NCBI GenBank assembly: GCA_014859965.1
Contig: JACZKQ010000038.1
Coordinates: 1-64,000 of the forward strand
DNA from: Phycisphaerae bacterium
Lineage (GTDB): Bacteria > Planctomycetota > Phycisphaerae > Sedimentisphaerales > Anaerohalosphaeraceae
DNA length: 64,000 bases
Reading direction: 5' to 3'
Below are positions 33,593 through 60,045 of this stretch, piece after piece (the first letter of the stretch is position 1; each line of letters opens with the position of its first letter). The notes below the pieces were generated by a model. That model did not search any database. It was not told where the DNA came from and was given only the letters and a program-made list of their open reading frames with translations. Both the position numbers and the translations under genes were made by a program.

Positions 33593-34537
33593 CTAACGGC
33601 CGGGATAGGCCAGCGACTGTATCAACGATTCTGCAAATCCGTCCAGGTCCGGAAACAGTGACTCACTCGTAATATTCATGTCCTTAAGGCGCTTCAGAAT
33701 CTCGTTCCGCTCGTGCCTGCACGGCCGCAGTTCGATCCTGTAGAGACTGTCTTTCAATTCCTGCACGCCCCCATAAGCCGCCTTAAGATTATCGATGAAC
33801 GGCCTTGTGATATCACCGACCAGAAGAAACAGCCCTTGCTGCACCGTCAGCCGTCTGTTCAGCCGAAAAGGGTTCACCGCATATACGATCGGCAGCGGAT
33901 GCTGCATCAGATAGGCCACGATTGCAACATCCGTGATTTTGTCCCCCAACTCACGAAGACCCAATACATCCGTCTGCCCGGTCAGCTTTGCCCTTAAGCT
34001 TTCCAAGGCACGCGGCTGTCCGTCCTTTTCAATTCGATCGACCACCCTGCGTGAATTGTTCACACCTTCACGCCGCAAGGCCCAGACGATCCCGCTTTCA
34101 TTTTTGGCGAGGGCAAGATACACGGCCACATAGAACGAGTAGGTCCAATCCATCAGACGCGTCGGCGCGCCGTGATGACGCATCAACGCCATCCACTCCA
34201 GAACGTCGTCCTTGTCCGGCTCGTTGGAGATGTAGAGTAATGCCTTGCGCTGAAACTCGCGAATCATTTCATTTTCGCGTCGGCATTTGTCTCCAGCCTG
34301 CACCTCGTACATCTCGAACGCTTTTTCGAGGTGTGTCGCAAGTCCACAATCCCGGGCGCCCTGGTACCCGCATTCAGGGCATTTTGATTCGTCCAGCCGG
34401 TCCGCCCGATATATCCAATCCTCAGGATGTTCCGTCAGCTCCCGGCACTTGCCTCCTTCGGCAATGTCCTGCCATGTGCCGGCCTCAATTGCCTGATACC
34501 AACGTCCGCCTGCAACTGTGTCACTGTGTTGGCTCAC
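33593..34537 (-). CDS. FRG-domain protein with an inserted zinc-finger-like motif
   Basis: 314 residues from GTG 34537 with GGGAG about six bases upstream. The FRG domain is recognised by WIYRADR, FQRKALLYISNEPDKDDVLE and above all ALMRHHGAPTRLMDWTYS with FYVAVYLALAK. The name-giving Phe-Arg-Gly reads Tyr-Arg-Ala here. Between the first strand and the core lies an insert SKCPECGYQGARDCGLATH that could bind zinc. FRG domains are of unknown activity and occur in toxin, phage-defence and mobile-element contexts. It begins 22 bases after the GHMP kinase stop. It has no membrane segment, so I expect a cytoplasmic protein. Confidence 0.8.
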   Translation of the reverse strand: MSQHSDTVAGGRWYQAIEAGTWQDIAEGGKCRELTEHPEDWIYRADRLDESKCPECGYQGARDCGLATHLEKAFEMYEVQAGDKCRRENEMIREFQRKALLYISNEPDKDDVLEWMALMRHHGAPTRLMDWTYSFYVAVYLALAKNESGIVWALRREGVNNSRRVVDRIEKDGQPRALESLRAKLTGQTDVLGLRELGDKITDVAIVAYLMQHPLPIVYAVNPFRLNRRLTVQQGLFLLVGDITRPFIDNLKAAYGGVQELKDSLYRIELRPCRHERNEILKRLKDMNITSESLFPDLDGFAESLIQSLAYPGR

Positions 34538-37002: not shown

Positions 37003-37455
37003 TCAATGTCGCTTGCGGGCGGCCACAATGATCATGACCACTCCGAGCGCAGAAAGCAGCACGACGGAATAGATGATGTATTTCAGTACGGTATCGAATG
37101 AACCTGCGCCTTCCGCTGCGGGTGTAAAGGCAAGGCCCGCATTGGCGGCCGTCGGGTCCACAGCGGCCACCGCTGTTTCATCCAGAAGCCCTGCGCTCAG
37201 CGCTTTGGCGTCGGCGGTCGGAGCCAACAGGGCCGCTTTGCCGTCGAGCAGTGCCCCGGGTTTCTGCGGGTCCGACAGCAGGCTCATGACCTCACTTTCA
37301 CCCTGCGCGCCCGGACTGTATTCACTGATGTACAGAAGGGTCGGCGAATCGGTGTCTCCAAACGTAACACCTGCAAAAACTCTCACAAACGCAGAACCTG
37401 CGACGATTACCGCAATCCACACTACCAGAGGAATCCCCGTTCTTTGGATAACCAT
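37003..37455 (-). CDS. Small secreted protein with C-terminal membrane anchor, unknown
   Basis: 150 residues, starting at ATG 37455 with GGGAGAG upstream. I do not recognise a family. It has an N-terminal signal segment (GIPLVVWIAVIVAGSAFV), a middle part of about 75 residues rich in Ala, Gly, Asp and Pro, and a C-terminal helix (LKYIIYSVVLLSALGVVMIIV) followed by AARKRH. This signal-spacer-helix-basic tail layout is that of a membrane-anchored or sorted surface protein. There is no PEP or LPXTG box. It follows the epimerase gene on the same strand by about 75 bases. Confidence 0.5.
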   Translation of the reverse strand: MVIQRTGIPLVVWIAVIVAGSAFVRVFAGVTFGDTDSPTLLYISEYSPGAQGESEVMSLLSDPQKPGALLDGKAALLAPTADAKALSAGLLDETAVAAVDPTAANAGLAFTPAAEGAGSFDTVLKYIIYSVVLLSALGVVMIIVAARKRH

Positions 37456-37531
37456 GCTTTTCTCTCCCTTCCAGATTTATTTTTTAAACTACGCATTAAG
37501 GCATCATTGGTATTCCTTGACTTTTCGCGGT

Positions 37532-38590
37532 TCACATCTGTACGTCGTAAAAACCTTTGTACCAGCTTATAAAGTTGTCGACGCCCTGCTGAATGGGCGT
37601 ATTGGGGCGGTAACCAAGTTCGGCTTCCAGATCGGCGACATCGGCCCAGGTGGCCGGGACGTCGCCGGGCTGCATGGGCAGCATGTTCTTTCGGGCGGTT
37701 TTGCCGAGGGCCCCTTCGATGGCTTCGATGAAATCCATCAGCCGCACGGGCGCGCTGTTACCGATGTTGTACACCTTGTACGGAGCGGGCGAGCAGGAGG
37801 GGTTCGGCGCTGCGCCGGTCCAGTCGGCGGCGCCGGTCGGGGGGTTATCGATGACCCGGACGACGCCTTCGACGATGTCATCGACGTAGGTGAAGTCCCG
37901 CTTCATGTCGCCGTGGTTGAAGACGTCGATGGGCCGATCCTCCAGAATGGCCTTGGTGAACAGAAAGAGCGCCATGTCCGGGCGGCCCCACGGGCCGTAG
38001 ACGGTGAAGAACCGCAGGCCGGTGGTGGGTACGCCGTAGAGATGGCTGTAGCAGTGGGCCATGAGTTCGTTGGCCTTCTTGCTGGCGGCGTAGAGACTGA
38101 CCGGGTGGTCGACGTTGTCGGCGGTTGAAAACGGCATCGACGTGTTGAGGCCGTAGACGCTGGAACTGCTGGCGTATACAAGGTGCTGTATCTCGTTGTG
38201 GCGGCAGGCCTCAAGGATGTTGACGAAGCCGACGATGTTGGCGTCAATGTAGGCGCGGGGATTGACCAGGCTGTATCGCACGCCCGCCTGGGCGGCGAGA
38301 TTTACGACGCGGTCAAACTTTTCGGCCTTAAAGAGCGTGTCCATGCCGGCATTGTCTTCCAGGTTGAGCTTGACGAATCGGTAATTCGGCTGCGTGCGGC
38401 TCCGGACGGGGCGGCCGTATTCAATAGTATCCCGATCGATGCCCGCCTGCGAAAGGCGGCCGTACTTGAGGTTCGGGTCGTAATAGTCGTTGATGCTGTC
38501 AAGACCCACGACTTCATCGCCGCGGGCGAGGAGCCTCTGGGCCAGATGATAGCCGATGAAGCCGGCGGTTCCTGTAATGAGTATTTTCAT
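37532..38590 (-). CDS. NAD-dependent epimerase, probable UDP-glucuronate 4-epimerase
   Basis: 352 residues, an extended short-chain dehydrogenase. It has [19 protein letters not shown] (NAD loop), [33 protein letters not shown], the catalytic YASSSSVYG and [11 protein letters not shown] (Tyr-x-x-x-Lys), and [18 protein letters not shown]. The [10 protein letters not shown] phrase is typical of UDP-glucuronate 4-epimerases (CapI/LpsL-like), which make UDP-galacturonate. About 20 residues around [18 protein letters not shown] look inserted. The ATG is preceded directly by a copy of the TTAGC-type dispersed repeat, whose reverse strand supplies AAGAG as a possible ribosome site. Confidence 0.85.
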
Positions 38591-45044: not shown

Positions 45045-46085
45045 TTAAGCTTCCAAGAGAAACTTATGTAAAAGAGTCTTGTTAAGTAACGAGAGGTCTT
45101 TGACATCTCTGGGAATTGTGAAGCACTTCGAGTTCAGAATATCTTCAAGCAGGGAAGGCAGCATGTCTACGGACAGACGATCTAACGGGACACAGAATGG
45201 CGATCGTGTTTGAGAATAGAACCGTTGGGTCTTGCTGTGAAACGGCAGCCCCATGACTCTCTTTCCGAGACTCATCGCTACGATTCCAACGTGCAGCTTT
45301 GTCGTCACAATCACGTCCAAATCGAATATTGACTGAATAAGTTGCTCAACACTGGTATACTTTACCACTGTGCCTCTGGAAGACACCGGGTGACTGTATG
45401 TCTGATGACGCTCATCCAATAGAAAGAAAACTTCTATGTCTCTCGTGTCACAAAACCCAAGTATTGCATCTATCACGTGACAACTTTTTTCTTTAAAGGA
45501 TTGCGGCACATGCACATGAAGGCCTAATCTAGTTTTGCGGGGAGAATCAGTGCTGCCACAGCGCACTGTTGGTAACAATTCGCTTACCGTTGCAAGGCTA
45601 AGCGCTGCATCTGCTACAAGATTGACTCCGCAGTCTCCTGCAATGGCATGCACATGCTCAAGGGATTCCACATCCCTTACGCAGAACACCTTGGATTTCC
45701 TCGCCAGTTCTTTAACGAACCATCTATATGGTGAACTCGACACAGGCCCTACCCCAACGCCAAATACACCTATCGGCTTTGACATAATCTGAGAGACTAG
45801 GAAGCCAGGGACATGTCTGCAGAAATTCCTCAGCGACCAACTGAATTGTGAAGTGGGTGGCTCTCCCAAGTATCCCCCTCCAACAAAAACTACCTTGTCC
45901 ACTAAAGGCAAGTACCGCATACCATATTGATCGGCTTCAAGCGATTTGCGAAATGCGCCTGCAGCAAAGGGAATAATTGCTGTAGCAGTGGGAACGACTT
46001 CCTTGATCCATGACAAAAACAACTTAAAGAGCAGGACGTCACCAAAATTGTCGCTGTAGCTCGAACCAAGGAACGCCACCTTCAT
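45045..46085 (-). CDS. Polysaccharide pyruvyl transferase family protein
   Basis: 346 residues. Signatures: AFLGSSYSDNFGDVLLFKLF, DKVVFVGGGYLGEPPTSQ, PIGVFGVGVGPVSSSPYRWF, KVFCVRDVESLEHV, LVADAALSL and DVIVTTKLHVGIVAMSLGKR. The family adds pyruvate ketals to surface sugars such as terminal hexoses. Its start overlaps the flippase stop by four bases (ATGA), a sign of coupled translation. Confidence 0.85.
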   Translation of the reverse strand: MKVAFLGSSYSDNFGDVLLFKLFLSWIKEVVPTATAIIPFAAGAFRKSLEADQYGMRYLPLVDKVVFVGGGYLGEPPTSQFSWSLRNFCRHVPGFLVSQIMSKPIGVFGVGVGPVSSSPYRWFVKELARKSKVFCVRDVESLEHVHAIAGDCGVNLVADAALSLATVSELLPTVRCGSTDSPRKTRLGLHVHVPQSFKEKSCHVIDAILGFCDTRDIEVFFLLDERHQTYSHPVSSRGTVVKYTSVEQLIQSIFDLDVIVTTKLHVGIVAMSLGKRVMGLPFHSKTQRFYSQTRSPFCVPLDRLSVDMLPSLLEDILNSKCFTIPRDVKDLSLLNKTLLHKFLLEA

Positions 46086-49159: not shown

Positions 49160-51742
49160 TTAGTTTTCGGCTGGTTTTACGGAGAGGTCCTGGATGAGTT
49201 TGGTGGCTGGGGCGTAGCCAGGTTTCAGGCGGAGGCAAATTCTGGCTTCGTGGATGGCCTGGTCGTACTGTTTTTCGGATGCGAGCAGCCTCGCAAGCTG
49301 CATGCGCCAGGCGACCTGGCCGTAGTCCAGGACAAGGGCCTTGCGGTAGTGTTCGATTGCATCGGGTGTGCGGTCCTGACGCGTGTAGATCCCTGCCAGA
49401 GACGCCAGGGCCGACGGGGAAACCGTCTGGGGGTCTGCACAGATGTTTTCGAGGAGCGTGGTGATCTGAATTCTCACGTTCTGCGCCAGTTCGCTTTCTT
49501 TATCCTGCTCCGCCAGGACGTTTGCAACGTAGCTGAGTCGCCAGACTTCGGCGGCGGCAAGCTTGATCGCAAGGTCGGGCCGGCCGATCTGCCGGACGTA
49601 GACGTCGACGACGTCGCGGAAGAGCCGTGAGTCCAGTTCTACGGCACGGCTGAGCCTGCTTTCGGCGGCCTGTAATTGCGGGCTGTCGCGCAGGAACGGT
49701 GTGGCGTTGGGATCGGCCGGATCGGGACCGGCCGAGGCGAGCGCCTCTTCGATATCCAGGAGGCCGGCTACGAGACAGACGGTGGGGTCGCAGGGGGCAA
49801 GGCTGAGGCCTTTGCGGATCAGGGCGGCGCCGAGGTGGTCAGGACCTTGATCGGCCGCCTGTGTCCGGGCGACCAGATCATGGCGGAGCCGGGTCAACTG
49901 GCCCACGACGCACCAGGTCGGTCCGAACGTTGGCGCCAGCGGGATGGCGCCGTAGAACTCGTCGATGATGCGATCAAGGGTTTTGAGGCTCTCCGGGGGC
50001 AGCGTGGGGAGTCCGGACTCGGGGTTCGGGACCGTCGTCATGGAGCGCCAGCGGTAGACGTTAAGCCAATGGCGGTAATGCACGCTGCCGGGCTGGCTGT
50101 CTGCGGCGCTCAGGGCGTTACGGATAAGGCTTACAAACTCACGATAATCGGCCTGCGCCTGCCACTGGCGGGCGGCGAGGTCGGATTCAACGGCACGGGC
50201 CTTGTTCCAGTGCGATTCGGCGATCCTGGCCTCGTTGCTTTGGAGCACGTTGAAACAGCCGACGGCCGCCAGGACGCCCGTCGTCCAGAGAATGACCCTG
50301 CGCGACAGAGGTTTGGCGGCTCGGGCGGGTCCGGCCGATGCAGCGTCCATGCGGGAGAGGGCAATCAGGAGCGCACAGAAGACGGCCGACAGCGCCGCGT
50401 TGGCGGGCAGGTGCTGGCCGAAGTCGCTGAAGCTGTGGATGAGGATGGCCAGCAGGCCGAAGCCGAGGCCGTAGGCCGCCGAACGGATCGGGACCTGGGC
50501 GGTGCGGATGCATTTTGCAAAATCGAACCAGACAAAGGCCCCGAAGACCAGCAGGGGAAGGATACCGGCCAGACCGAGCTCTTCGGCCGTCTGGGCATAC
50601 TCGTTCTCGGCGTGGGCGGCAAGCGCGGCAATGGTCGAGCGGTTGAACATGGGATAGACCACCTCGTGGGTGCCGAGACCCGTGCCGAACACCGGGAACT
50701 TTGTCCAGGCCAAGGCGATATCCTTGAGTATCTGGAGGCGGCCGCCTTGGGCGTCTTCAAGATCGCCGAGAGTGGCCAGGCGGTCGTAAACGGCGTCAAA
50801 ACCGATGTAGAGGACGCACATGAAGGCGGCCAGGGCCATGAGCACCATGATCCATCCGCGGCCGCGGATCGACTGGCGAGAAGTAACCAAGAGGGTTGTG
50901 AATCCGGCGGCGATGAGCATGCTGACGATTCCGCCGCGGGTGAGCGCGACGAAGACCGAAGCGGCGCCGATGATGATCATGGCGAGCAGGAACCAGATGC
51001 GCTTGCCCGTTCGCGATTCAAAAAAGTCGGCGGCAACGGCAATGGAGAACTGGCGGCGGGTAAAGGCCTCGTGCAGCTTGACGAACAGCAGACCCAGCGC
51101 GGCGCCGATGGAAAGATTCATGAACTGGCCGTAGTGGCTGTGATTGACGAACGGGCCGGAGTTTGCAAGCTTATGCGGGATGGGCACGATCCAGTAGATC
51201 TTATCGGTTTGGGTCATGACCTGGAGCAGCGCCAGTATGGTGACAGTGCCGCCGATGACTGAGATGGCGGTGAGGAGGCGTTTTATCTGCTCGGGGGTCC
51301 TGAAGACGTTGAGGACAACGACAAAGATCGTGGCGACGGCGACGACGAGCCTGAACTGCGAGGCCGTGATCCACGGATAGAAGCTGAGGGTCATCGTGCC
51401 GAGACGGCGCTGGCCGCCCGGCAGCATGCCGAGCAGGTCCTTCTTTATGGCGGCGGTATTGGGCGAGAGGGTCTCGACGAGGGAGACGGGCAGTTCGGCA
51501 AGCTGCAACACCGGGATCAGGCAGAAGAGGATCAGGGGCACCAGCGCCCAGGAAAACGTGACCGCCGCAGCGCGTACGATCAGGAGTTTAGCCAGAAAGC
51601 AGGCGGCCATGAGCGCAGAAAGCAGGATGACCACCTGCTGGCTCCACGCATGCACCGCTCCGAATGCAAGCGGCATAAAGGCCAGCAGTGCATAGAGCAG
51701 GTACTCGATCGCCGTGTCGAATCGTTTCGGCCGGATGTCCAT
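49160..51742 (-). CDS. O-antigen-ligase-like membrane protein fused to a TPR domain
   Basis: 860 residues from ATG 51742; longer in-frame starts overlap the upstream gene and carry a non-membrane, low-quality extension. Residues about 10-480 have ten to twelve helices and the Wzy_C/O-antigen-ligase features: SGPFVNHSHYGQFMNLSIGA in the first large loop, VALTRGGIVSML, then FPVFGTGLGTHEVVYPMFNR and AHAENEYAQTAEELGLAGIL. The C-terminal third is periplasmic or cytoplasmic TPR repeats (DRTPDAIEHYRKALVLDYGQ, ASEKQYDQAIHEARICLRLK). The family polymerises or ligates surface glycan. Two such candidates (this and 43760-45040) suggest one polymerase and one ligase. Confidence 0.82.
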   Translation of the reverse strand: MDIRPKRFDTAIEYLLYALLAFMPLAFGAVHAWSQQVVILLSALMAACFLAKLLIVRAAAVTFSWALVPLILFCLIPVLQLAELPVSLVETLSPNTAAIKKDLLGMLPGGQRRLGTMTLSFYPWITASQFRLVVAVATIFVVVLNVFRTPEQIKRLLTAISVIGGTVTILALLQVMTQTDKIYWIVPIPHKLANSGPFVNHSHYGQFMNLSIGAALGLLFVKLHEAFTRRQFSIAVAADFFESRTGKRIWFLLAMIIIGAASVFVALTRGGIVSMLIAAGFTTLLVTSRQSIRGRGWIMVLMALAAFMCVLYIGFDAVYDRLATLGDLEDAQGGRLQILKDIALAWTKFPVFGTGLGTHEVVYPMFNRSTIAALAAHAENEYAQTAEELGLAGILPLLVFGAFVWFDFAKCIRTAQVPIRSAAYGLGFGLLAILIHSFSDFGQHLPANAALSAVFCALLIALSRMDAASAGPARAAKPLSRRVILWTTGVLAAVGCFNVLQSNEARIAESHWNKARAVESDLAARQWQAQADYREFVSLIRNALSAADSQPGSVHYRHWLNVYRWRSMTTVPNPESGLPTLPPESLKTLDRIIDEFYGAIPLAPTFGPTWCVVGQLTRLRHDLVARTQAADQGPDHLGAALIRKGLSLAPCDPTVCLVAGLLDIEEALASAGPDPADPNATPFLRDSPQLQAAESRLSRAVELDSRLFRDVVDVYVRQIGRPDLAIKLAAAEVWRLSYVANVLAEQDKESELAQNVRIQITTLLENICADPQTVSPSALASLAGIYTRQDRTPDAIEHYRKALVLDYGQVAWRMQLARLLASEKQYDQAIHEARICLRLKPGYAPATKLIQDLSVKPAEN

Positions 51743-51759
51743 TATCTGGGAATCGATTT

Positions 51760-52554
51760 TCAGTCTCCTTGCCTTGATGCATCGGCAGATGTGGCGCCGC
51801 TGTCGGGGGGACATCCATCCAGGATGTCCCTGCCCTCTGCGATGCATCTGGGAATATCGATAAATAACTCGCGAGCGCGGTCGCGGCCAAGTGTTTGCTG
51901 AACGGCATCGAAGGCGTGCGTCATCATGGGTCTTCGATTCACGAGGTCGTGCGCGTCGGAAGCGACGACACAGGGCAGAGGCGATTGGAGCAGATGCCAG
52001 GCGAAGGTCCGAAGGGCGCCCCCCATACCGCCTTTGGGCGGCAGGGCTGCGGCGGTGATCTGGAAACACGCGCCTAAACGCGCCCATTGATGAAGGACGG
52101 GCAGGCGCTGCTTGAAGAAGGCACATCGTTCCACATGGGCGATTATAACCCGGATTTGCGATGAGGCAAGCTGCTCGATGAGCGGGGTGATATCGATGAA
52201 ACATTGTGAAGGAAGTTCCAGGAGCAGCCAGCGGCCGCGGTCGGCAAGCGTACTGATCTTATTGGCCCGGAGCAGTCCGCCGATGCGCTCGTCGAGGCGA
52301 ACCTCGCCGCCGGCGAGGACGCGAAGGTGGATGCCGGCGTCGACGAGCAGGACGTTGAGATGGTCGACCGCGGCGCGCACGGCATCGACACGGCAGGCGT
52401 CTTCATAACGGCCCAACTGGTGCGGTGTCGCGATTACCGTGGAAACGCCATCGGCGACAAGGGCCCGGCACAGGTCGAGCGAACCGGCCTCGTCGGCGGG
52501 GCCGTCGTCCAGACCGGGGAGGCAGTGGCAATGAATGTCAATGTATTCAGCCAT
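51760..52554 (-). CDS. CpsB/CapC-type PHP tyrosine phosphatase
   Basis: 264 residues. A metal-dependent PHP-fold phosphatase that acts on the tyrosine kinase of capsule export. Signatures: YIDIHCHCLPGLDDGPADEA, STVIATPHQLGRYED, LAGGEVRLDERI, VIIAHVERCAFFKQR and CVVASDAHDLVNRRP. This type is usual in Gram-positives (CpsB, YwqE), whereas classical Wza-Wzc loci use Wzb. It has no recognisable ribosome site, since the GAGTAG repeat array abuts the ATG. It lies 17 bases before the ligase/TPR gene. Confidence 0.9.
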   Translation of the reverse strand: MAEYIDIHCHCLPGLDDGPADEAGSLDLCRALVADGVSTVIATPHQLGRYEDACRVDAVRAAVDHLNVLLVDAGIHLRVLAGGEVRLDERIGGLLRANKISTLADRGRWLLLELPSQCFIDITPLIEQLASSQIRVIIAHVERCAFFKQRLPVLHQWARLGACFQITAAALPPKGGMGGALRTFAWHLLQSPLPCVVASDAHDLVNRRPMMTHAFDAVQQTLGRDRARELFIDIPRCIAEGRDILDGCPPDSGATSADASRQGD

Positions 52555-52749: not shown

Positions 52750-54903
52750 TCAGCCTGCCGCTTTTTCTTTGTGGCCGTAGCTGTTGCCGTAGCCGTAGCC
52801 GTAATAGCCCTTGCCGGGCGATACGTCATTGACGATCGTTCCGAGCAGCCTTGCGCCTACGCTGTAGAGGCCTTCACATGCATGCCGGCTGACGTTCCGG
52901 GTGGACTTATTGGCACGCACCACGAGCAGCGTGACATCGCAGATCGCCGCCAGAATCCTCGAGTCGCTGACGGGCGCGACCGGGGGCGAGTCAATGATGA
53001 TGCGATCGTACCTCTGGGCAAGGGCCTTGAGCTTTTTGCCGAAGGCCCGGTTGTTGAGCAGTTCGGACGGGTTGGGCACATCGGGGCCCGCCGTCAGGAT
53101 GGACAGGCCTGGGACTTCGGTGGCCTGGATCGCCTCTTCTTCCGTGAGGCGACCTGCAACAAGCGCCGAGAGGCCCCTGTCCTTGTCGGCTCCAAAGATG
53201 AGATGCTGCTTCGGTTTGCGAAGGTCGGCGTCTATCAGGAGCGTTGTCTGGCCCGCCTGGGCCATGGCGATCGCCAGATTGCTGGCGAGCGTCGTCTTGC
53301 CGTCGCCTTTGTCGGGAGACGTCACCAGGAGGGTTTTGGCGCTGCCTTCCGGCACGCCGAAGAAAACGGCGGTGCGGACCGTGCGATAGGCCTCGGCCGT
53401 GATGGAGCCGGAGTCTTGGTGGACCTTGGTGCCGCGATCAGAGATGCTCTGCCGGCTGGACATGGCGGGGATGGTGCCGAGGATAGGCGTACCGAGGATG
53501 GCCTGGACCTCTTCGGCGGATCGGAGCCGGTGGTCCAGGAAATCGCGCAGGAGCGACAGGCCGCCGCCGGCCATCAGGCCGAGCATCAGGGCCATAGCGA
53601 GAACACGGGCTTTTTGCGGCTTTGAAGGGAGATCGGCGGGCCGGGCCACTTCGAGGATGCTGATGTTGAGGGCGCCGACGTCTTCCGTGACGTTGAGTTC
53701 CTTGATGCGGTCGTCGAGCATGTCGGAGAGTTTCTTGGTCTGCTGCCAGTCGGATTCCAGAAGGGTGTACTGAGCAACCTGCTCATTCAAAGTCAACGCC
53801 AGGCTGCGTTGATTTTCGAAATATTCGGTGATCTCTTTTTCACGCTGGCCGGCGGATTCGCACTGCTGCATCGCGATGGCAAGCTGGGCCTCGGCATAGC
53901 CCTTGTCCAGGGCGGACAACTGCGAACTAACCTGAGCGATTTTGGCTTTCTTGGCCAGGACCGAGGGATGGTCTCCGGTGACCTGAGCGGTCAGGTCGGT
54001 CAACTCCAACTGCAACTGGTCGAGCTGCCGCTGAAGCCGGAGGTTCTCCGTCTCGGAAGAGACGTAGAAGCCTCTGGCCCGCTGGGCCCGGACAAACTCC
54101 TGCAGCTTGAGAGGGTCCGAGACCATGGTGCGGATCGTCTCGTAGTTTGATTTTTCCTCGATGGTCTTGAGTTGGGCCTGGGTAACGGCTTCAGAGAGGC
54201 GGGAGAGACGATCGAGAATAATGTTGGAATTCTTATATTCAAAGGCCAGGGCCTCGTTTGCCTTCTTGAAATCGACCATGGCGGCCAGTTTGCCGTTCAG
54301 CTGCGTGTTGATCTTCTGTTTTTCTTTCTGGAGGATGCTGAGGACCTCGGCGGAAGTGTTTTTCTTTGTTGTGGACTGATAGGTAATGTAGGCGTCCACG
54401 AGCGCGTTGACCAGTTGGGCGGCTTCGGTGGGGTACGGCGACTCGAAGGCCACCGTGATGATATCGTCCTTTTTACCGACGGATACGTTGACGTTTTTTC
54501 TCAGGTAGGCGACTATATTGTCAACATCAGCAAATGTCTTGAGGCCGGTTGTACCGGGGGAATCCATTGCATTGCTGATAATGGGCGTTGAGATCAGCAG
54601 CGCCGCCTGGGTATACAGGTAATTCTTGGACTGGGTCATGACCCCTTCGGCCTCACCGATAATCCGGGGACCGCTCTGCTCGACAAAGATCTGCGAAGTG
54701 CTCTCATAGATCGGGGTGGCCTTTTGGACGTAGACGAAGCCCGCCGCGACGCTCAGCAGGACACAGCCCAGAATCAGCCATCGATTTCGCCAGGCAATCT
54801 GAAAAAGGCTCTCGCCAATCAGACCGTTTTCCGGTCCCTCGCGCATCGTATCCTGCGCGAATTGGCCTTTTGAGAAGATGTCAGCATTTCCGTTTTCAAC
54901 CAT
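52750..54903 (-). CDS. Wzc-like polysaccharide co-polymerase and BY-kinase
   Basis: 717 residues from ATG 54903 (GGTGAT upstream; the earlier TTG lacks a site). The N-terminal Wzz domain has two membrane helices (RWLILGCVLLSVAAGFVYVQ near 45; a second near 440) around a long coiled coil. The C-terminal bacterial tyrosine kinase has TSPDKGDGKTTLASNLAIAM (Walker A), TTLLIDADLRKPKQH (A') and IIIDSPPVAPVSD (B). The tail GKGYYGYGYGNSYGHKE is a cluster of six tyrosines, the normal autophosphorylation target. It controls chain length and export together with the Wza-like protein upstream and the PHP phosphatase downstream. Confidence 0.93.
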   Translation of the reverse strand: MVENGNADIFSKGQFAQDTMREGPENGLIGESLFQIAWRNRWLILGCVLLSVAAGFVYVQKATPIYESTSQIFVEQSGPRIIGEAEGVMTQSKNYLYTQAALLISTPIISNAMDSPGTTGLKTFADVDNIVAYLRKNVNVSVGKKDDIITVAFESPYPTEAAQLVNALVDAYITYQSTTKKNTSAEVLSILQKEKQKINTQLNGKLAAMVDFKKANEALAFEYKNSNIILDRLSRLSEAVTQAQLKTIEEKSNYETIRTMVSDPLKLQEFVRAQRARGFYVSSETENLRLQRQLDQLQLELTDLTAQVTGDHPSVLAKKAKIAQVSSQLSALDKGYAEAQLAIAMQQCESAGQREKEITEYFENQRSLALTLNEQVAQYTLLESDWQQTKKLSDMLDDRIKELNVTEDVGALNISILEVARPADLPSKPQKARVLAMALMLGLMAGGGLSLLRDFLDHRLRSAEEVQAILGTPILGTIPAMSSRQSISDRGTKVHQDSGSITAEAYRTVRTAVFFGVPEGSAKTLLVTSPDKGDGKTTLASNLAIAMAQAGQTTLLIDADLRKPKQHLIFGADKDRGLSALVAGRLTEEEAIQATEVPGLSILTAGPDVPNPSELLNNRAFGKKLKALAQRYDRIIIDSPPVAPVSDSRILAAICDVTLLVVRANKSTRNVSRHACEGLYSVGARLLGTIVNDVSPGKGYYGYGYGNSYGHKEKAAG

Positions 54904-54942
54904 GCTTATCACCGTTTCTAACAAAAAAAGGCTTAAATAACG

Positions 54943-56418
54943 TTACTCGTCGTAACTCCGGTAGAAACCCTTACCCTGAAGGTGCTGATACTGACCGGTC
55001 AGGTTGGCCCCGACACGTACGGCGAAGATCTCGGCCAGCAGGAGGTTTCTGTGGGTCCTGGGGGTCTGCTCGACAGCGACGACGTCTCCGGGTTTGATGG
55101 CAATGGCGGGCGCCCCGACGGGCGAGGTGCCGTTAATTGCAAACGTGGCGTCGACCAGGCTGCCGTCGGCGGCCTGGCGGTAGACGCGGATAAAGCGGGG
55201 ATCGGCGACTTCATCGACGCCGCCGGCGAACGCCAGGGCCTGGAGCAGATTGTACTGCACATCAGGCGGGTAGGGGAAGGCGCCGCTCTTCTTGACGAGG
55301 CCGACCACGGTGAACACTTCGGGGTTCAGCGCCGTCACCTCCACGACCGCACCTCCCTCAAGAGCAACATCGGCAAACGGGACATTGAGCCCTTTGACAG
55401 GCAGCAGGAGGGCGGCAGCGCGTTGATTTGCGTTACCTTGCGGACGGCTGGTCGCCTCCAGGGCCACGCAGAGCGAATCTTTCGTGTTCGCGCTGTCGGC
55501 GAGCATGTCGTTTGGGGCGCCTGGGGCGAGGACCCTGGCAAGCTCGTTTAACTGATTCGTGACGGCCGCCCTGGAGACGCCGGGACAGGCCTGGGCCAGG
55601 CTGCTGACGAAGTCTCGGCGCAGGCGGGGGTCGGCCATGTCGAGATACTGGGAATGGAGCAGACCGGAGCCGTCGCGCGCCGTCAGTGTGCCTTGCGTCT
55701 TGCCGGAAGCAAGGAACGACAGTTGGACCTGTACGTAGCGGTCCTCAGCCGGGTCCTTGCGGGCACCGGTTGTTCCGGTTTGCGGGGCGGCGGTCGGCGG
55801 TCTTTCAATCGATATGACGGCTGCGCCTTTTTCCAGGATGCCGCCGGCCGTCATGATCAAAGACACCAGCGACATCTGGTCATGCTGGAGGGAATAGACA
55901 CCGGGATTGGCGACGCCGCCGGTGATGGCGACTCGAAATGTTTTGTACTCCTCGACGCGGGCGACAATCGACGGCGGCGTCAGGCAGTATCGCGGATAGT
56001 AGGCATCGATAACCGTCTTTTCGAGCTGCGGAAGGGTCTTACCGGCCGCTTCTATCCGCCCGATCAGCGGAAGAGTGATCGTGCCGTCCTCGGAGAGGCG
56101 GCACAGGTGCGGGTGGTATTCTTCGGATTTGCCGGCGTTCTCCGCCGTGGTATCGCGCAATACCGACGGAATCTCCACTTTAAGGAGATCACCGGGGATG
56201 AGTTGGTAATCGCCGCTGTAGGAGGCGCGCGACTGGAGGAGCCGGTTTACATCGACTTCCGGGCGCACCGGACCTGCCTGGTGGAACGCATCCAGCTTAT
56301 CGCCCGTGGTCAGTTGTGGTTCGGGGCCGCAACCGGCCATACAGAGCAGCAATGCACAGACGATAGGGAAAACGCCACCAACACCGCGCAGGGCGGCAGA
56401 CTTTTTCTCGAAGTTCAC
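54943..56418 (-). CDS. Wza-like polysaccharide export lipoprotein with SLBB domains
   Basis: 491 residues from GTG 56418 with GGGAGC seven bases upstream; a GTG five codons earlier has a poorer site. Lipobox at LLCMAGCGPEP, giving an outer-membrane lipoprotein. The Poly_export domain follows: YQLIPGDLLKVEIPSV, HLCRLSEDGTITLPLIGRIE, AAGKTLPQLEKTVIDAYYPR, then SLBB-type units (FRVAITGGVANPGVYSL; VFTVVGLVKKSGAFPYPPD) and IAIKPGDVVAVEQTPRTH. Between the SLBB units is a linker of about 150 residues. It is the first gene of the export set and starts 104 bases beyond the small REWIRIP gene. Confidence 0.9.
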   Translation of the reverse strand: MNFEKKSAALRGVGGVFPIVCALLLCMAGCGPEPQLTTGDKLDAFHQAGPVRPEVDVNRLLQSRASYSGDYQLIPGDLLKVEIPSVLRDTTAENAGKSEEYHPHLCRLSEDGTITLPLIGRIEAAGKTLPQLEKTVIDAYYPRYCLTPPSIVARVEEYKTFRVAITGGVANPGVYSLQHDQMSLVSLIMTAGGILEKGAAVISIERPPTAAPQTGTTGARKDPAEDRYVQVQLSFLASGKTQGTLTARDGSGLLHSQYLDMADPRLRRDFVSSLAQACPGVSRAAVTNQLNELARVLAPGAPNDMLADSANTKDSLCVALEATSRPQGNANQRAAALLLPVKGLNVPFADVALEGGAVVEVTALNPEVFTVVGLVKKSGAFPYPPDVQYNLLQALAFAGGVDEVADPRFIRVYRQAADGSLVDATFAINGTSPVGAPAIAIKPGDVVAVEQTPRTHRNLLLAEIFAVRVGANLTGQYQHLQGKGFYRSYDE

Positions 56419-56541
56419 TTTGTAAGCTCCCACTTCCGGCGATCATTGCTATCCCCAGCAATGATCGCCAGTGCATAGACACAGGCTCCTGTCCATTAAA
56501 TGCCTGTACATATTGCGCGTACGCAGCTGCGTACGCGTTAC

Positions 56542-56838
56542 TTACCTGGGACGCCCGGGTTGGAACGGACTGCGAAAAGGCGGCGGCGGTGGAATTCGTA
56601 TCCACTCACGATTTTTCAACGCGGGTCCGACTCCGGGGAACGGTTTTTCTCCGGTCCCTACGCCGTTGTTCGACTTGACCTTAAGATCGAACGGGTCGAA
56701 CATGCCCATCTCGGGGTCATCCTTCTGGCCGGCTGCCGGCGCGTCGCTTGTAAACAAAACGACCACCACCGTGATAACCAGCGCGACAGAGCCCCATCGG
56801 GCCAGAACTTTTGGCAAACCACTCACTCTTTTCAACAT
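56542..56838 (-). CDS. Small single-pass protein with FDPFDL...REWIRIP motif (paralogue 1)
   Basis: 98 residues from ATG 56838 behind AAGGAG (seven bases). The family is not known to me. An N-terminal membrane helix (ARWGSVALVITVVVVLF) is followed by a short exported or periplasmic part with GMFDPFDL, a glycine-rich stretch, and the terminal block REWIRIPPPPPFRSPFQPG. The next gene upstream has the same two blocks. The pair stands directly ahead of the Wza-like gene on the same strand, so a role in polysaccharide export or attachment is possible but not shown. Confidence 0.6.
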   Translation of the reverse strand: MLKRVSGLPKVLARWGSVALVITVVVVLFTSDAPAAGQKDDPEMGMFDPFDLKVKSNNGVGTGEKPFPGVGPALKNREWIRIPPPPPFRSPFQPGRPR

Positions 56839-56877
56839 ACTCACTCTCCTTGGAAACTACTTACAAACCACTACTTA

Positions 56878-57159
56878 TTAAAATGCAGGCATAAACGGGC
56901 TGCGAACCGGCGGGCTGTACGGGATGCGTATCCACTCTCGCAGGGTGGGAATCGGGGTTGTCGGCCGAACGGGCGGAGCGACCTTTGCCGTCATCATACT
57001 CAGGTCGAACGGGTCAAAAAATTGCCCTTCCTCTTCCGTCGTGTTCAACTGAGCGGTAATTGTGGCGCTTGTACCCACGATAAACAGTCCCGCAATGATT
57101 GCAAACAACAGAATACCTCTGGTCAGATTTTTTCCAGAAACATTTGGCTTCAGACTCAT
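56878..57159 (-). CDS. Small single-pass protein with FDPFDL...REWIRIP motif (paralogue 2)
   Basis: 93 residues from ATG 57159 with AAAGGAG upstream. A membrane helix (GILLFAIIAGLFIVGTSATI) is followed by QFFDPFDLSMM, a Pro/Val-rich stretch and the terminal block REWIRIPYSPPVRSPFMPAF. About 40 bases separate it from paralogue 1. The shared blocks with different helices and linkers argue for an old duplication kept by selection on the C-terminal motif. Confidence 0.6.
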   Translation of the reverse strand: MSLKPNVSGKNLTRGILLFAIIAGLFIVGTSATITAQLNTTEEEGQFFDPFDLSMMTAKVAPPVRPTTPIPTLREWIRIPYSPPVRSPFMPAF

Positions 57160-57220
57160 ATTTTTCTCCTTTATTAGCGTCATACACAGATCACATTACG
57201 CATGCAGATTCAACGAACGT

Positions 57221-58468
57221 TTATGGAGCAGGTACACATGTAGCGCTGCAGCCGGCATTCGGGGGCCAGTGCTGAATCAGCACATTGACATCTGAAAATG
57301 TGATCTGTCCGTCCTGATTGAAGTCGGCGTTCCAGCGATACGGTTTGGGCGGCCAAGCGTCTATCACTGCCTGGACATCGGTAAATGTGATCTGGCAGTC
57401 CCGATTCGAATCACCCTTCGCAAAGCACATGCCCGGGCAATTGGCCGGGATCCGTCCGAGCCCACTCAAGGCAGCGAGCATCTCGGCGGCATAGACTTTC
57501 ATATCCGGGCTGTCCTGCCACAGATGACCGTATACTGTGCCGTCAGCATTGACGCCCTCCCACAACGCTTTCTTTGCAAGCCCGATCTCGTCTCTAAAAT
57601 TATGGTTCGTGTACTTGTCGGCAGAGATCAGCCCAAGCGTTCCGAATATGGCGTCTTCCGTGAACCCGCTTGTAACGCCAAGAGCGCTTCCCGCGCCGTC
57701 GGTGTGATCAAACCGCCAATAGAATGCGCCTTTGCTGCTTTGGTGAGCCAGCAGGAGCTCCGGAAGATCCGCAAGCGTAAGGCCCGTCCACATCGGCCGA
57801 CCCGTTCCGTCTGCATCAACGGGCGCGTCATTCATTTGTCCGGATTCGGCCAGCGCCCACGTCGCAATACCCAGCGCCATGACCGGGAAATCGGCCGTGC
57901 TGTCGTCGACTGTGGCGAGATAGCCAAGCAGCGCTTCACGGAAGAGACCTGCATCCTCTGCTTCGACATAATGCGCCGCGATTGTATGGAACGCAATATA
58001 GAAAACGGCTGTCGACGGCTCGGCGCCGTAGGTGTAATCGTCGATAAAGGCAGCCGTGCCGCCGCCTTCGGCTTTGATCGCGCTGTAAAAATACGCCAGG
58101 TCATCGCGATACGGATTATTGGACGGATCCGCCGCTGTGCCACTGAGCATCGCCATCGCCAAGGCTTCATCGCCGTACCCATAATACCCGCCGCTGACCG
58201 CGTTGATGTAATCACCGGCCAGTTCGGCGGCAGCAAGATACGAGGGCTCGCAGGTGCGTTTGTAGGCGTCGACCAGTCCGATCACCATCGACCCGGTGAA
58301 ATACTCCTCGCCCGCCCAACTTCCGTCGACCTGCTGGTCCGACACCAGACGTTCCGCAATCGCCGTGATTGCCTGATTGGCATTGTTTATGGGCTGCGCA
58401 CCGACGGGCGGCCGGATACCTGCAACACCCAGCAATGCTACTACTAAAACTATTCTCGCTCGCTGCAT
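57221..58468 (-). CDS. Secreted alpha/alpha-toroid protein with two dockerin-like EF-hands
   Basis: 415 residues from ATG 58468 (AGGAG upstream), with a signal peptide (RIVLVVALLGVAGIRPPVGA). The body is helical repeats resembling prenyltransferase/squalene-cyclase-like or uncharacterised toroid proteins (ITAIAERLVSDQQVDGSWAG, FTGSMVIGLVDAYKRT, FPVMALGIATWALAESGQM, AIFGTLGLISADKY). The DGSWAG phrase is the common QW-like edge. No cyclase DxDD or protease motif was seen. The C-terminus has a paired dockerin: GDSNRDCQITFTDVQAVIDA and ADFNQDGQITFSDVNVLIQH, the classical two-repeat form, unlike the single repeats elsewhere in the window. Confidence 0.7.
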   Translation of the reverse strand: MQRARIVLVVALLGVAGIRPPVGAQPINNANQAITAIAERLVSDQQVDGSWAGEEYFTGSMVIGLVDAYKRTCEPSYLAAAELAGDYINAVSGGYYGYGDEALAMAMLSGTAADPSNNPYRDDLAYFYSAIKAEGGGTAAFIDDYTYGAEPSTAVFYIAFHTIAAHYVEAEDAGLFREALLGYLATVDDSTADFPVMALGIATWALAESGQMNDAPVDADGTGRPMWTGLTLADLPELLLAHQSSKGAFYWRFDHTDGAGSALGVTSGFTEDAIFGTLGLISADKYTNHNFRDEIGLAKKALWEGVNADGTVYGHLWQDSPDMKVYAAEMLAALSGLGRIPANCPGMCFAKGDSNRDCQITFTDVQAVIDAWPPKPYRWNADFNQDGQITFSDVNVLIQHWPPNAGCSATCVPAP

Positions 58469-59071
58469 AACAATTCTCCTAACTAAATAAAGGCCTCCAG
58501 TGGCGCATTTACGCTGCGCCGCGTCTCGCTCTGTTCCATTGAGGATAAGGAAGAAATGATTCCAGGAAACTTCGGCCCCAGATCCTTTCCTTCACCATCA
58601 TCCAAGTGCGATAATATCAGAACTCAACAAGGGTGTCAAGCCCGATAATATTATTTCTGCAAAAAAAACCACAATATCGGGTGTCCAAGGGATCACATGA
58701 GCGGTTATCCGCGATTATGGGATGTGCCCTGAAGCACAGCAGATTGTTGTCTCCAGCATTCATTTTTCTCCCTTTCCCTCTGCCTGTTGTGCTCGAATTT
58801 TACGTCCCAAATAGCATCTCGAGCAACAGCCACAAAATCAAGCTCTCAAATTAACCAATTTCGGCAGGTGAAAACACCCATTTGCCTCCATCCACCGTAC
58901 CGATTTCATCCAATATGGCTTCTTAGTCACTCCAAAAACACGCGGCAATGTGCAAGATACCGCTTCAGATCACGCCAAATACACCTTCTTTTGGCATTAT
59001 AGCCATGCCAAAAGGAATGTCAACTCCGATAAATAACTAATTTTAAGTAGTAATAATACCCATTGCATTGA
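58469..59071. other. AT-rich intergenic region
   Basis: About 600 bases in which I see no gene, RNA or clear repeat. The left end carries the ribosome site and probably the promoter of the toroid gene. Many stops occur in all frames. Confidence 0.4.
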
Positions 59072-59450
59072 TCAAAAACAGGTGAGCCCGTTCCGCATCG
59101 CATATTTTACCAATCCAAGAATGTTTTCAACGCCGATTTTCAGCATTATGGCAGAGCGGTGACGCGCGAAAGCGGGGTTTTGCTGGTTCTTGCAGAAGAG
59201 ATTGTAAAAAAAGAGTGGAGACTCCACTGTGCCATCGGCGATCAGTTGGAGGACCTCCACCTTGGAAAATCAGGGCAACGCCCCTCTTCTTGCGTCGCGC
59301 CCTCAGATCAGGCAAGTCCAGGTGGAGGTCGCGCTGGCGACCCCCTATAGACGGGCTGAACCGTGTCTTTCCCCGCTGGACCTCTCGAATCGCCTTAGAG
59401 AGGACATGGGCGGAGGTTTGTTTGATCAGATATCCCACCGCTCCCGTTTA
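59072..59450 (-). pseudogene. NarL/FixJ-type response-regulator fossil, frameshifted and N-terminally deleted
   Basis: Reading leftward, GAVGYLIKQTSAHVLSKAIR and EVQRGKTRFSPSI match the end of a receiver domain (GYLLK..S...L..AIR.V..G...SP). After a scrambled stretch and a frame change come VEVLQLIADGT and then, beyond a gap, HRSAIMLKIGVENILGLVKY and AMRNGLTCF, the LuxR-type DNA-binding domain (EVL.LIA.G; HR...M.K......GLV.YA.R.GL). The phosphoacceptor Asp region is missing. The middle contains an imperfect inverted repeat around CTCCACCTTGG/CCAGGTGGAG. It cannot encode a working regulator. Confidence 0.75.
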
Positions 59451-59705
59451 CTGAAGCACCGACATTCTTTCTATCTGGTCCTTTCGGATTTCGTACTCTC
59501 TCTGGTCAATCCTGCCAGCATTATAATCCTCTTCGATCCTCTTCATTTCCCGGTTCGAGACATATTCATAGCCGCCGCCGGCAGCGACCGCGCCGCCTGC
59601 CGCACCCAGACCGGCCGTTCCCCACTTACTCTTACATCCGCCTGCAAAAAGCCCGACAAGCGCAACCATCGTAACCATAACCAGCAAAACCCTTAATCGC
59701 GACAT
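59448..59705 (-). CDS. Small glycine-zipper lipoprotein
   Basis: 85 residues from ATG 59705 (AAGGAG upstream); a long upstream extension of the frame has no ribosome site. A signal peptide ends in a lipobox-like LVGLFAGGCKSK. Next is a glycine-zipper segment (GTAGLGAAGGAVAAGGG), which can insert in membranes, then a charged helix (EDYNAGRIDQREYEIRKDQI). Small lipoproteins of this sort are common and mostly of unknown role. Confidence 0.7.
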   Translation of the reverse strand: MSRLRVLLVMVTMVALVGLFAGGCKSKWGTAGLGAAGGAVAAGGGYEYVSNREMKRIEEDYNAGRIDQREYEIRKDQIERMSVLQ

Positions 59706-59875
59706 ACGTCTCTCCTTCATCATTAAACTTCTGTTATACCCACACTCAATGTCCCGAACACGGGCACCGGAAAAGTCACGTCGAACTATTCGCTGTGACT
59801 TCATATTGATCGGCGGCTTTTTGGATGTTCTCTCCGGTTCTTTCGATGTCTTTCCTGCGCCTTCAAGCTCCGGCA
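59706..59875. other. Intergenic segment with no gene seen
   Basis: A leader for the small lipoprotein gene. I recognise nothing else in it. Confidence 0.35.
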
Positions 59876-60045
59876 TCACCCGTTGAGGAAATGAATGTTT
59901 TCGCCGAGCACGCTGAGATCGGCGACACACGCTGCGCAGCGGCAGGCGGCGTAAGGCAGCCACAGGTAATCATCGGATAAGTGCGTGCGTACGCCGCGCC
60001 GGATTGATAAAACCCGGTGCGACCCCGGAATCGGCAGCTCAAGGT
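59876..60045 (-). pseudogene. Fossil of a GH94 glycoside phosphorylase (cellobiose-phosphorylase-like)
   Basis: The minus strand reads RRGVRTHLSDDYLWLPYAAC, then VADLSVLGENIHFLNG and a stop. This matches the conserved GH94 segment GRGVRT..SDD.LWLPYA ... TGD.SVLDE...FLEG around the catalytic region. About 55 residues remain, with substitutions (CAACVA in place of the usual YV.ATG) and a terminal stop in the middle of the normal protein. No other part of the enzyme is in the window. It is a remnant of a lost beta-glucan phosphorylase gene. Confidence 0.6.

Follow-up and report, generated by a model that had tools for sequence, protein, structure and literature searches.

Most of what is known of exopolysaccharide export through Wza and Wzc comes from a handful of bacterial model groups. 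The described systems closest to the small proteins reported here are of three kinds. Translation-arrest peptides such as SecM, MifM, ApdA and ApdP, together with the uA_LPPP peptides, are encoded by short ORFs before an export gene and carry an N-terminal signal and a Pro-rich, conserved C-terminus (PMC10987492, PMC12992588); the search criteria given in PMC10987492 are a short ORF before sec or yidC, an N-terminal signal or transmembrane segment, a conserved C-terminal end and a spacer of >30 residues, and LPPP-ended candidates (uA_LPPP) precede secA in Phycisphaerales, UBA1161 and WQYP01 of Planctomycetota (PMC10987492, PMC12992588). Proline-rich antimicrobial peptides are characterized in Box 1 of PMC7736402 by a Pro content of at least 25%, a net charge of at least +1 and DnaK or the 70S ribosome as target; among them, bactenecin 5, which appears as Bac5(1-23) in PMC7736402, has a PIRXP core described in PMC6973051 as required for ribosome inhibition. 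Finally, the exopolysaccharide-associated PEP-CTERM/EpsH (exosortase) proteins are, in the account of PMC1569441, secreted, of little homology and tied to exopolysaccharide genes.

In the window (the whole stretch of 64,000 nucleotides that was analysed), two small proteins, A and B, are encoded beside an exopolysaccharide export locus and resemble each of these systems in part. They share the general plan of the arrest peptides, but precede polysaccharide export genes, are tied to the gene for a toroid protein (dock), have no RAPP-like end and are followed by long gaps in which no common RNA fold was seen, unlike SecM, MifM, ApdA, ApdP and uA_LPPP as described in the above sources. With the proline-rich antimicrobial peptides, bactenecin 5 included, they have in common Arg-Pro-Pro-hydrophobic repeats and a cationic tail (PMC7736402, PMC6973051), whereas they are bacterial, carry a putative signal peptide and a long linker, and are conserved beside exopolysaccharide genes. 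Likeness to the PEP-CTERM proteins of PMC1569441 lies in probable secretion, scant homology and the link with exopolysaccharide genes, and some dock homologues share PEP-CTERM-like ends with them; A and B end instead in a soluble, polar Arg-Pro block with no C-terminal membrane segment, and have no Pfam or NCBIfam match.

The small proteins A and B and their family

Both ORFs lie on the minus strand between dock (58468-57221) and wza (from about 56433), and the pair that an earlier note on this DNA had picked out for a common FDPFDL and a common C-terminal block is indeed encoded there. Protein A (56878-57159, 93 residues) starts at ATG 57159, with AAGGAG six bases 5' of it, and ends at 56878; it has a signal-peptide-like N-terminus, FDPFDL at 57018-57001 and the tail REWIRIPYSPPVRSPFMPAF at 56940-56881. 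Protein B (56542-56838) has 98 residues from the preferred start, ATG 56838 (AAGGAG seven bases 5'), or 100 from the alternative GTG 56844, with FDPFDL at 56700-56683 and the tail REWIRIPPPPPFRSPFQPGRPR at 56610-56545. In both, a hydrophobic N-terminus with an AxA-like end is followed by FDPFDL, by middles that are dissimilar and by a near-identical C-terminus, where 14 of 18 residues are identical in an ungapped window (maximum of 8 in 300 shuffles of B). Since the two-sequence BLASTP match of A with B is weak (E 0.019), the proof of kinship rests on the family, whose best profile matches beyond the genus, but within the order, reach an E value of 1e-12. Judged from sequence, A and B are two tandem copies of one unnamed family of small, putatively secreted peptides. 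Their earlier description as membrane proteins is not borne out; their N-terminal helix, with an AxA-type end recognized by eye, looks like a cleavable signal peptide and not a lasting membrane anchor, which makes secretion more likely. The AF2 model of A, of low confidence overall (mean pLDDT 74.6, pTM 0.28), shows this helix, two short strands flanking FDPFDL and an extended tail.

Among 39 genomes of the window genome's family, a search with A found two clear relatives (G022 and G019), and the profile of the resulting four sequences (A2: A, B and these two) matched, at E<=0.05, 33 of the 161 genomes searched within the order, the weakest of which are noise (L067-L072 and L074-L076, E 0.009-0.05, without dock and wza). 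At the level of the class, a 27-row profile (A3) with a limit of E<=0.02 matched 40/397 genomes, up to 12 candidates being scored in each; the weakest are noise likewise (L134, L135, L138 and L140-L143, again without dock and wza). When up to 12 candidates per genome were scored in a phylum sample of 392 genomes, a limit of 0.001 was passed only by the window genome, by G014, which belongs to its family, and by a partial match in G515 (E 6.6e-4), and no convincing member was seen outside the class, an absence limited by the sampling and by the number of candidates scored. An HMM applied to the fetched neighbourhoods kept 26 loci besides that of the window at E<1e-4, all of them in the order, with further members in other orders of the class; where a record with a member bears a name, it is that of a Planctomycetota MAG, in several cases assigned to Sedimentisphaerales or Phycisphaerales. 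The search of other Planctomycetota that the earlier note had proposed accordingly gave 26 further loci of the order with dock and wza as constant neighbours, rather than an empty result or dispersed matches whose surroundings have nothing in common.

The members were compared in an alignment of 38 rows (A7), picked by hand and with manually trimmed start points; left out of it were L063, whose tail reads Leu-Thr and thus breaks the invariant Arg, as well as L089, L086 (same as L085), L115/L131, L136, L161 and L185. None of the 38 rows matched a Pfam or PADLOC profile at E<=0.01, and the two unrelated NCBIfam models that matched one row each (E 0.006-0.008) were taken as noise. A PDB sequence search with the L085 member and the A7 profile gave no match at E<=10, Rfam gave none over window positions 54500-59500, and searches of the open-access journal literature listed no description of the family. 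The small-protein family is real and conserved, and is undescribed as far as the literature and profile libraries searched go; its setting, that of exopolysaccharide export, is a known kind of locus. A lipobox-like string occurs within the first 50 residues in only 1/38 rows (L127), and assignment as a lipoprotein was rejected.

Soon after the signal region, the rows carry a [DNE]PF motif (PF in 37/38; NPL in L113), and their C-terminal block has the consensus RPPI-RIPY-RPPL-RSPF-RPPL, with Arg at every fourth residue. At offsets -12 to +7, 110 of 121 Arg residues are in phase, anchors excluded (148/159 minus 38), the tail table being anchored on Arg-Ser/Thr so that Arg stands at offset 0 by construction; in the unanchored A7 alignment, R86 is invariant and S87 is conserved at 90% or more. 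In the anchored tails, the core Arg is followed by Ser in 36 rows and by Thr in the other 2 of the 38. The REWIRIP form is a variant local to the window genome, whose nearest relatives have RLWVRIP and RQWVHVP, and the earlier idea of a processing tag finds no counterpart in a block that is a four-residue Arg repeat with no obvious tag of that type. Tail charge is +2 to +7 in 38/38 rows (hence at least +1 in all), whereas the middle region is negative on average; Pro makes up at least 25% of the tail in 27/38 rows and PRP occurs in 1/38, the tail alone being scored.

The strong selection that had been suspected on the C-terminal 20 residues gains support from most close pairs, 6 of 9 having a tail pN of 0-0.04 vs a pS of 0.16-0.62, although the pairs share members and are non-independent. 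The tail is changed in the other three (L087/L089, L087/L088 and L120/L161; pN 0.19, 0.22 and 0.51), and the changes in L087/L089 and L120/L161 look like frame changes near the end. Pooled synonymous change is 0.45 in the tail vs 0.34 in the middle; as it is not reduced in the tail, the constraint acts on the protein rather than on the RNA.

The dock protein and the gene neighbourhood

A conserved upstream partner had escaped the earlier note, namely the dockerin/PEP-CTERM toroid protein dock (57221-58468, minus strand), a secreted (alpha/alpha)6-toroid protein of 415 residues with a C-terminal dockerin (Dockerin_1, 24.7 bits vs a cut-off of 22.9), 42% identical to its homologue at L005. Dockerin_1 is found at E<=0.01 in 9/24 dock homologues, and some of the others end in PEP-CTERM-like segments. 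The AF2 model is an all-alpha toroid (pLDDT 86), for which the best Foldseek matches are one GH105 and one GH76 enzyme (E about 7e-4) and VIA-align gives Z values of about 19-21, across roughly 250-290 residues, for GH88, GH105, sugar 2-epimerases and one chain of a polysaccharide lyase. In these scores the carbohydrate enzymes are tied with terpene cyclases, which have the toroid shape too. The modelled fold is thus like that of toroid glycoside hydrolases and lyases (GH88/GH105, GH76), from which dock differs by its dockerin or PEP-CTERM-like ends and by matching no Pfam enzyme family at cut-off, in the window protein as in 24 homologues. On this fold-level evidence, dock is probably a carbohydrate-acting protein; its conserved acids include D100, E101, D189, D254 and E271. 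It is strongly acidic, with a net charge of -16 to -54 and a pI of 4.1-4.7 in 24/24 cases, against +4 to -20 for Wza, the comparison being confined to these two proteins.

The placement directly ahead of wza/wzc that the earlier note had seen in one genome recurs in the order, wza following the small gene directly in 24/26 loci (exceptions L079 and L083). On the other side, dock is directly 5' of the small gene in 22 of the 23 loci whose upstream side is covered by sequence, L078, L079 and L084 being cut by contig ends; the exception is L066 (G070), which has the small gene and wza, and in whose genome dock was not found. The order dock-small-wza-wzc-cpsB also occurs outside the order (L127), where further arrangements are dock-small-GT4 (L132 and L133, the latter having wza farther along), small-wzc preceded by a PEP-CTERM-like protein (L131) and wza-wzc-cpsB-small (L128). 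At L136, a distant homologue of dock (E 5.5e-10) takes the upstream place, at L139 dock stands at the cluster's far end, and at L079 and L129 neither dock nor wza is in view. The gene 3' of the small gene may accordingly be wza, wzc, GT4, dock or that of a LEPR-type protein. Most loci have one small gene; the window genome has two in tandem, and the two of L155 are each paired with a separate dock. On the 5973-base contig of L083 (G074), three dock-type genes surround one small gene with no wza, as a local expansion of dock.

A dock profile (A5), which was made from docks adjoining small genes but searched independently of the small gene, gave full-length matches (E<=1e-40) in 32/159 genomes. 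Such a dock is present in 21/22 small-positive genomes vs 11/137 others (Fisher p 3e-17, uncorrected for relatedness, with the near-identical G057/G058 and G373/G441 counted separately; small-positive means E<=1e-3, the 22 genomes coming from the 161-genome search and dock from the 159-genome search). Starting from dock, a small gene missed by the first profile adjoins it in 5 of 11 further loci; the other six have none in view, L159 (with masked bases nearby), L162, L163 and L164 having sequence there, and L160 and L165 being cut by a contig end. Two of the genomes with such a pair, G016, with two dock-small pairs, and G142, have no wza on the contig and are outside the 63 genomes with a Wza match at E<=1e-40. 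Conversely, among 20 wza loci without dock, hand-picked and not exhaustive (L168 and L170 with <1 kb of upstream sequence), 19 also lack the small gene, the exception being L185 (G043). Because dock-small occurs without wza, and wza without dock almost always lacks the small gene, the presence of the small gene goes with dock more closely than with wza. From gene order and homology, one class of Planctomycetota has the small family and dock as a conserved module that heads an exopolysaccharide locus of the Wzx/Wzy type, and the near-constant place between dock and the export genes makes the family probably a working part of the polysaccharide export machinery.

Possible roles of the small proteins

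We tentatively favour a secreted, cationic accessory peptide that works with dock on the exported polysaccharide. Removal of the signal peptide would leave a mature peptide of roughly 55-65 residues for A and B, exposing a cationic, extended Arg-x-Pro-hydrophobic repeat; this repeat may bind a polyanion, for which the exported polysaccharide and the strongly acidic dock are the two candidates, with the near-invariant Arg-Ser/Thr as the core of the contact, and may thereby recruit or retain dock on the polymer near the Wza/Wzc exit. A polysaccharide pyruvyl transferase (45045-46085, minus strand, by profile match) is encoded in the locus, so that an anionic polymer is plausible. The family, its plan, the selection on its tail and its constant neighbours are the observed basis from which we infer the binding and its purpose. 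Counted against it are L066, which is without dock, four dock loci without the small gene, L079 and L129 with neither neighbour, the changed tails in 3/9 pairs and the pTM of 0.28 of the A model. Of the two roles offered in the earlier note, that of an undescribed export accessory gains support from the family, the constant neighbours and the tail constraint, whereas a modified-peptide precursor pair is at odds with the single copy at most loci and with the neighbourhood maps, in which no maturase or peptidase gene recurs; among the constant neighbours to be looked for, Wza was found (24/26 loci), and maturase and protease were not. In this class of Planctomycetota, which has been little studied, the export locus begins with an additional module: an enzyme-like toroid protein together with a peptide whose Arg-Pro tail is periodic. 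The dock-small module is a handle on matrix building in these bacteria. It also sets an extracellular polymer-binding peptide against a nascent-chain regulator, two readings that are cheaply separable.

The main rival is a ribosome-arrest leader peptide of the SecM/MifM/RAPP kind, whose signal would engage Sec while stalling of its Pro/Arg tail within the exit tunnel tunes a downstream envelope gene; we consider it unlikely. Three of the four features listed in PMC10987492 are found, namely the N-terminal signal (by eye, and as a helix in the AF2 model), the conserved C-terminal end and the spacer of >30 residues, and the fourth is present in spirit, the short unannotated ORF preceding the export gene wza instead of sec or yidC. 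The RSP core of the tail, Arg-small-Pro, is reminiscent of RAPP-like motifs, and the LPPP-ended sequences ahead of secA are candidate arrest peptides already described in Planctomycetota. None of the 38 tails, however, has a RAPP, RGPP, RAGP or RAPG end (they read R[ST]P[FY].P, a RAPP-like motif not being required of all arrest groups), the conserved block runs past RSP, the DPF motif would lie outside the tunnel, and the window genome has tandem copies. The downstream gene varies, while dock is the constant companion and, being usually upstream of the small gene, cannot be the gene regulated by arrest. In addition, the gaps from the small gene to wza range from 83 to 548 nt, and no shared RNA structure was seen in them (z below -2 in 3/22 after the stop and 2/22 before wza). 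A related proposal, in which a secreted peptide interacts with the ribosome through an exit-tunnel-binding Arg-Pro repeat, couples translation to envelope secretion and so sets the output of the exopolysaccharide operon, is in our view unlikely; if true, it would extend arrest-peptide control from Sec/YidC to polysaccharide export.

It appears distinctly unlikely that the tail binds Wza or periplasmic Wzc and there serves as clamp, plug or factor of assembly, with dock as a passenger. The direct succession of wza in 24/26 loci would fit such a partner, as would L066, L185 and L131, which keep the small gene with wza or wzc and no adjacent dock, but 19/20 dock-less wza loci are without the small gene, and G016 and G142 have the small gene and dock without a Wza match at E<=1e-40. 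Quite improbable is a glycan acceptor, whose Ser/Thr in the Arg-Ser/Thr core would take a sugar or polymer, for example via the Wzy_C-TPR protein, to yield a protein-anchored polysaccharide: Ser/Thr follows the core Arg in 38/38 anchored tails and the Wzy_C-TPR protein is conserved in the locus, yet the neighbouring Arg and Pro are equally conserved, and G016 and G142 keep the small gene with no polysaccharide locus in view. A proline-rich antimicrobial-type peptide of bacterial make, released against the ribosomes of neighbours, is highly improbable, for although the RPPI/RPPL repeats resemble bactenecin 5 as described in PMC6973051 and PMC7736402 and the tails are net positive in 38/38 rows with at least 25% Pro in 27/38, the PIRXP core is not the conserved part (the window genome has WIRIP), the placement with dock and wza is constant and no immunity or release gene recurs.

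The exopolysaccharide locus of the window

Downstream of B, all on the minus strand, the locus continues with a Wza-type polysaccharide export lipoprotein (Poly_export, SLBB; 54943-56433, profile match), 49% identical to the homologue at L005 and 64% to that at L004, whose start is perhaps GTG 56418 because the homologues begin near V-N-F. It is followed by a Wzc-type chain-length/tyrosine autokinase (52750-54924, from a profile match and the locus maps), a CpsB/CapC-type phosphatase (51760-52554), which is the next conserved gene, and the Wzy_C protein with TPR repeats (49160-52204). Between B and wza lies a perfect inverted repeat with a 13-bp stem and a 6-nt loop (56438-56469), the only perfect stem of at least 12 bp in the window and single-copy in the genome; a second hairpin, a 22-nt palindrome at about 56515-56537, is just 3' of the B stop. 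The local fold z is -6.9, and the hairpin is absent in relatives except L091 (20-bp stem) and, weakly, L064.

Upstream of the module, a strong match to a sigma-70-type promoter (58611-58639, minus strand; TTGACA-17-TATTAT with TG) is located about 140 bases 5' of the dock start and may plausibly begin a dock-A-B-wza transcript. Just beyond it, at 59072-59438 (minus strand), are remnants in two frames, apparently broken, which by eye we take to resemble a NarL-type response regulator (receiver end and LuxR helix-turn-helix). A response regulator is not a constant upstream neighbour, the LuxR-type signature being found in 2/30 loci by a regular expression that missed at least one regulator (L160). 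By eye and regular expression together, intact FixJ/LuxR-type regulators are encoded 5' of dock or the small gene at L064 (5645-6999), L066 (10624-12599) and L160 (3101-3748), and it is possible that these proteins regulate the module. Also upstream, at 59448-59963 (minus strand), lies the gene for a small, glycine-rich probable lipoprotein with an LFAGGC-type lipobox recognized by eye. Within the polysaccharide cluster, an ORF of 351 residues with no Pfam match at E<=0.01 runs on the opposite strand (37073-38128, plus), and the cluster's far end encodes an FRG-domain protein (33593-34537, minus).
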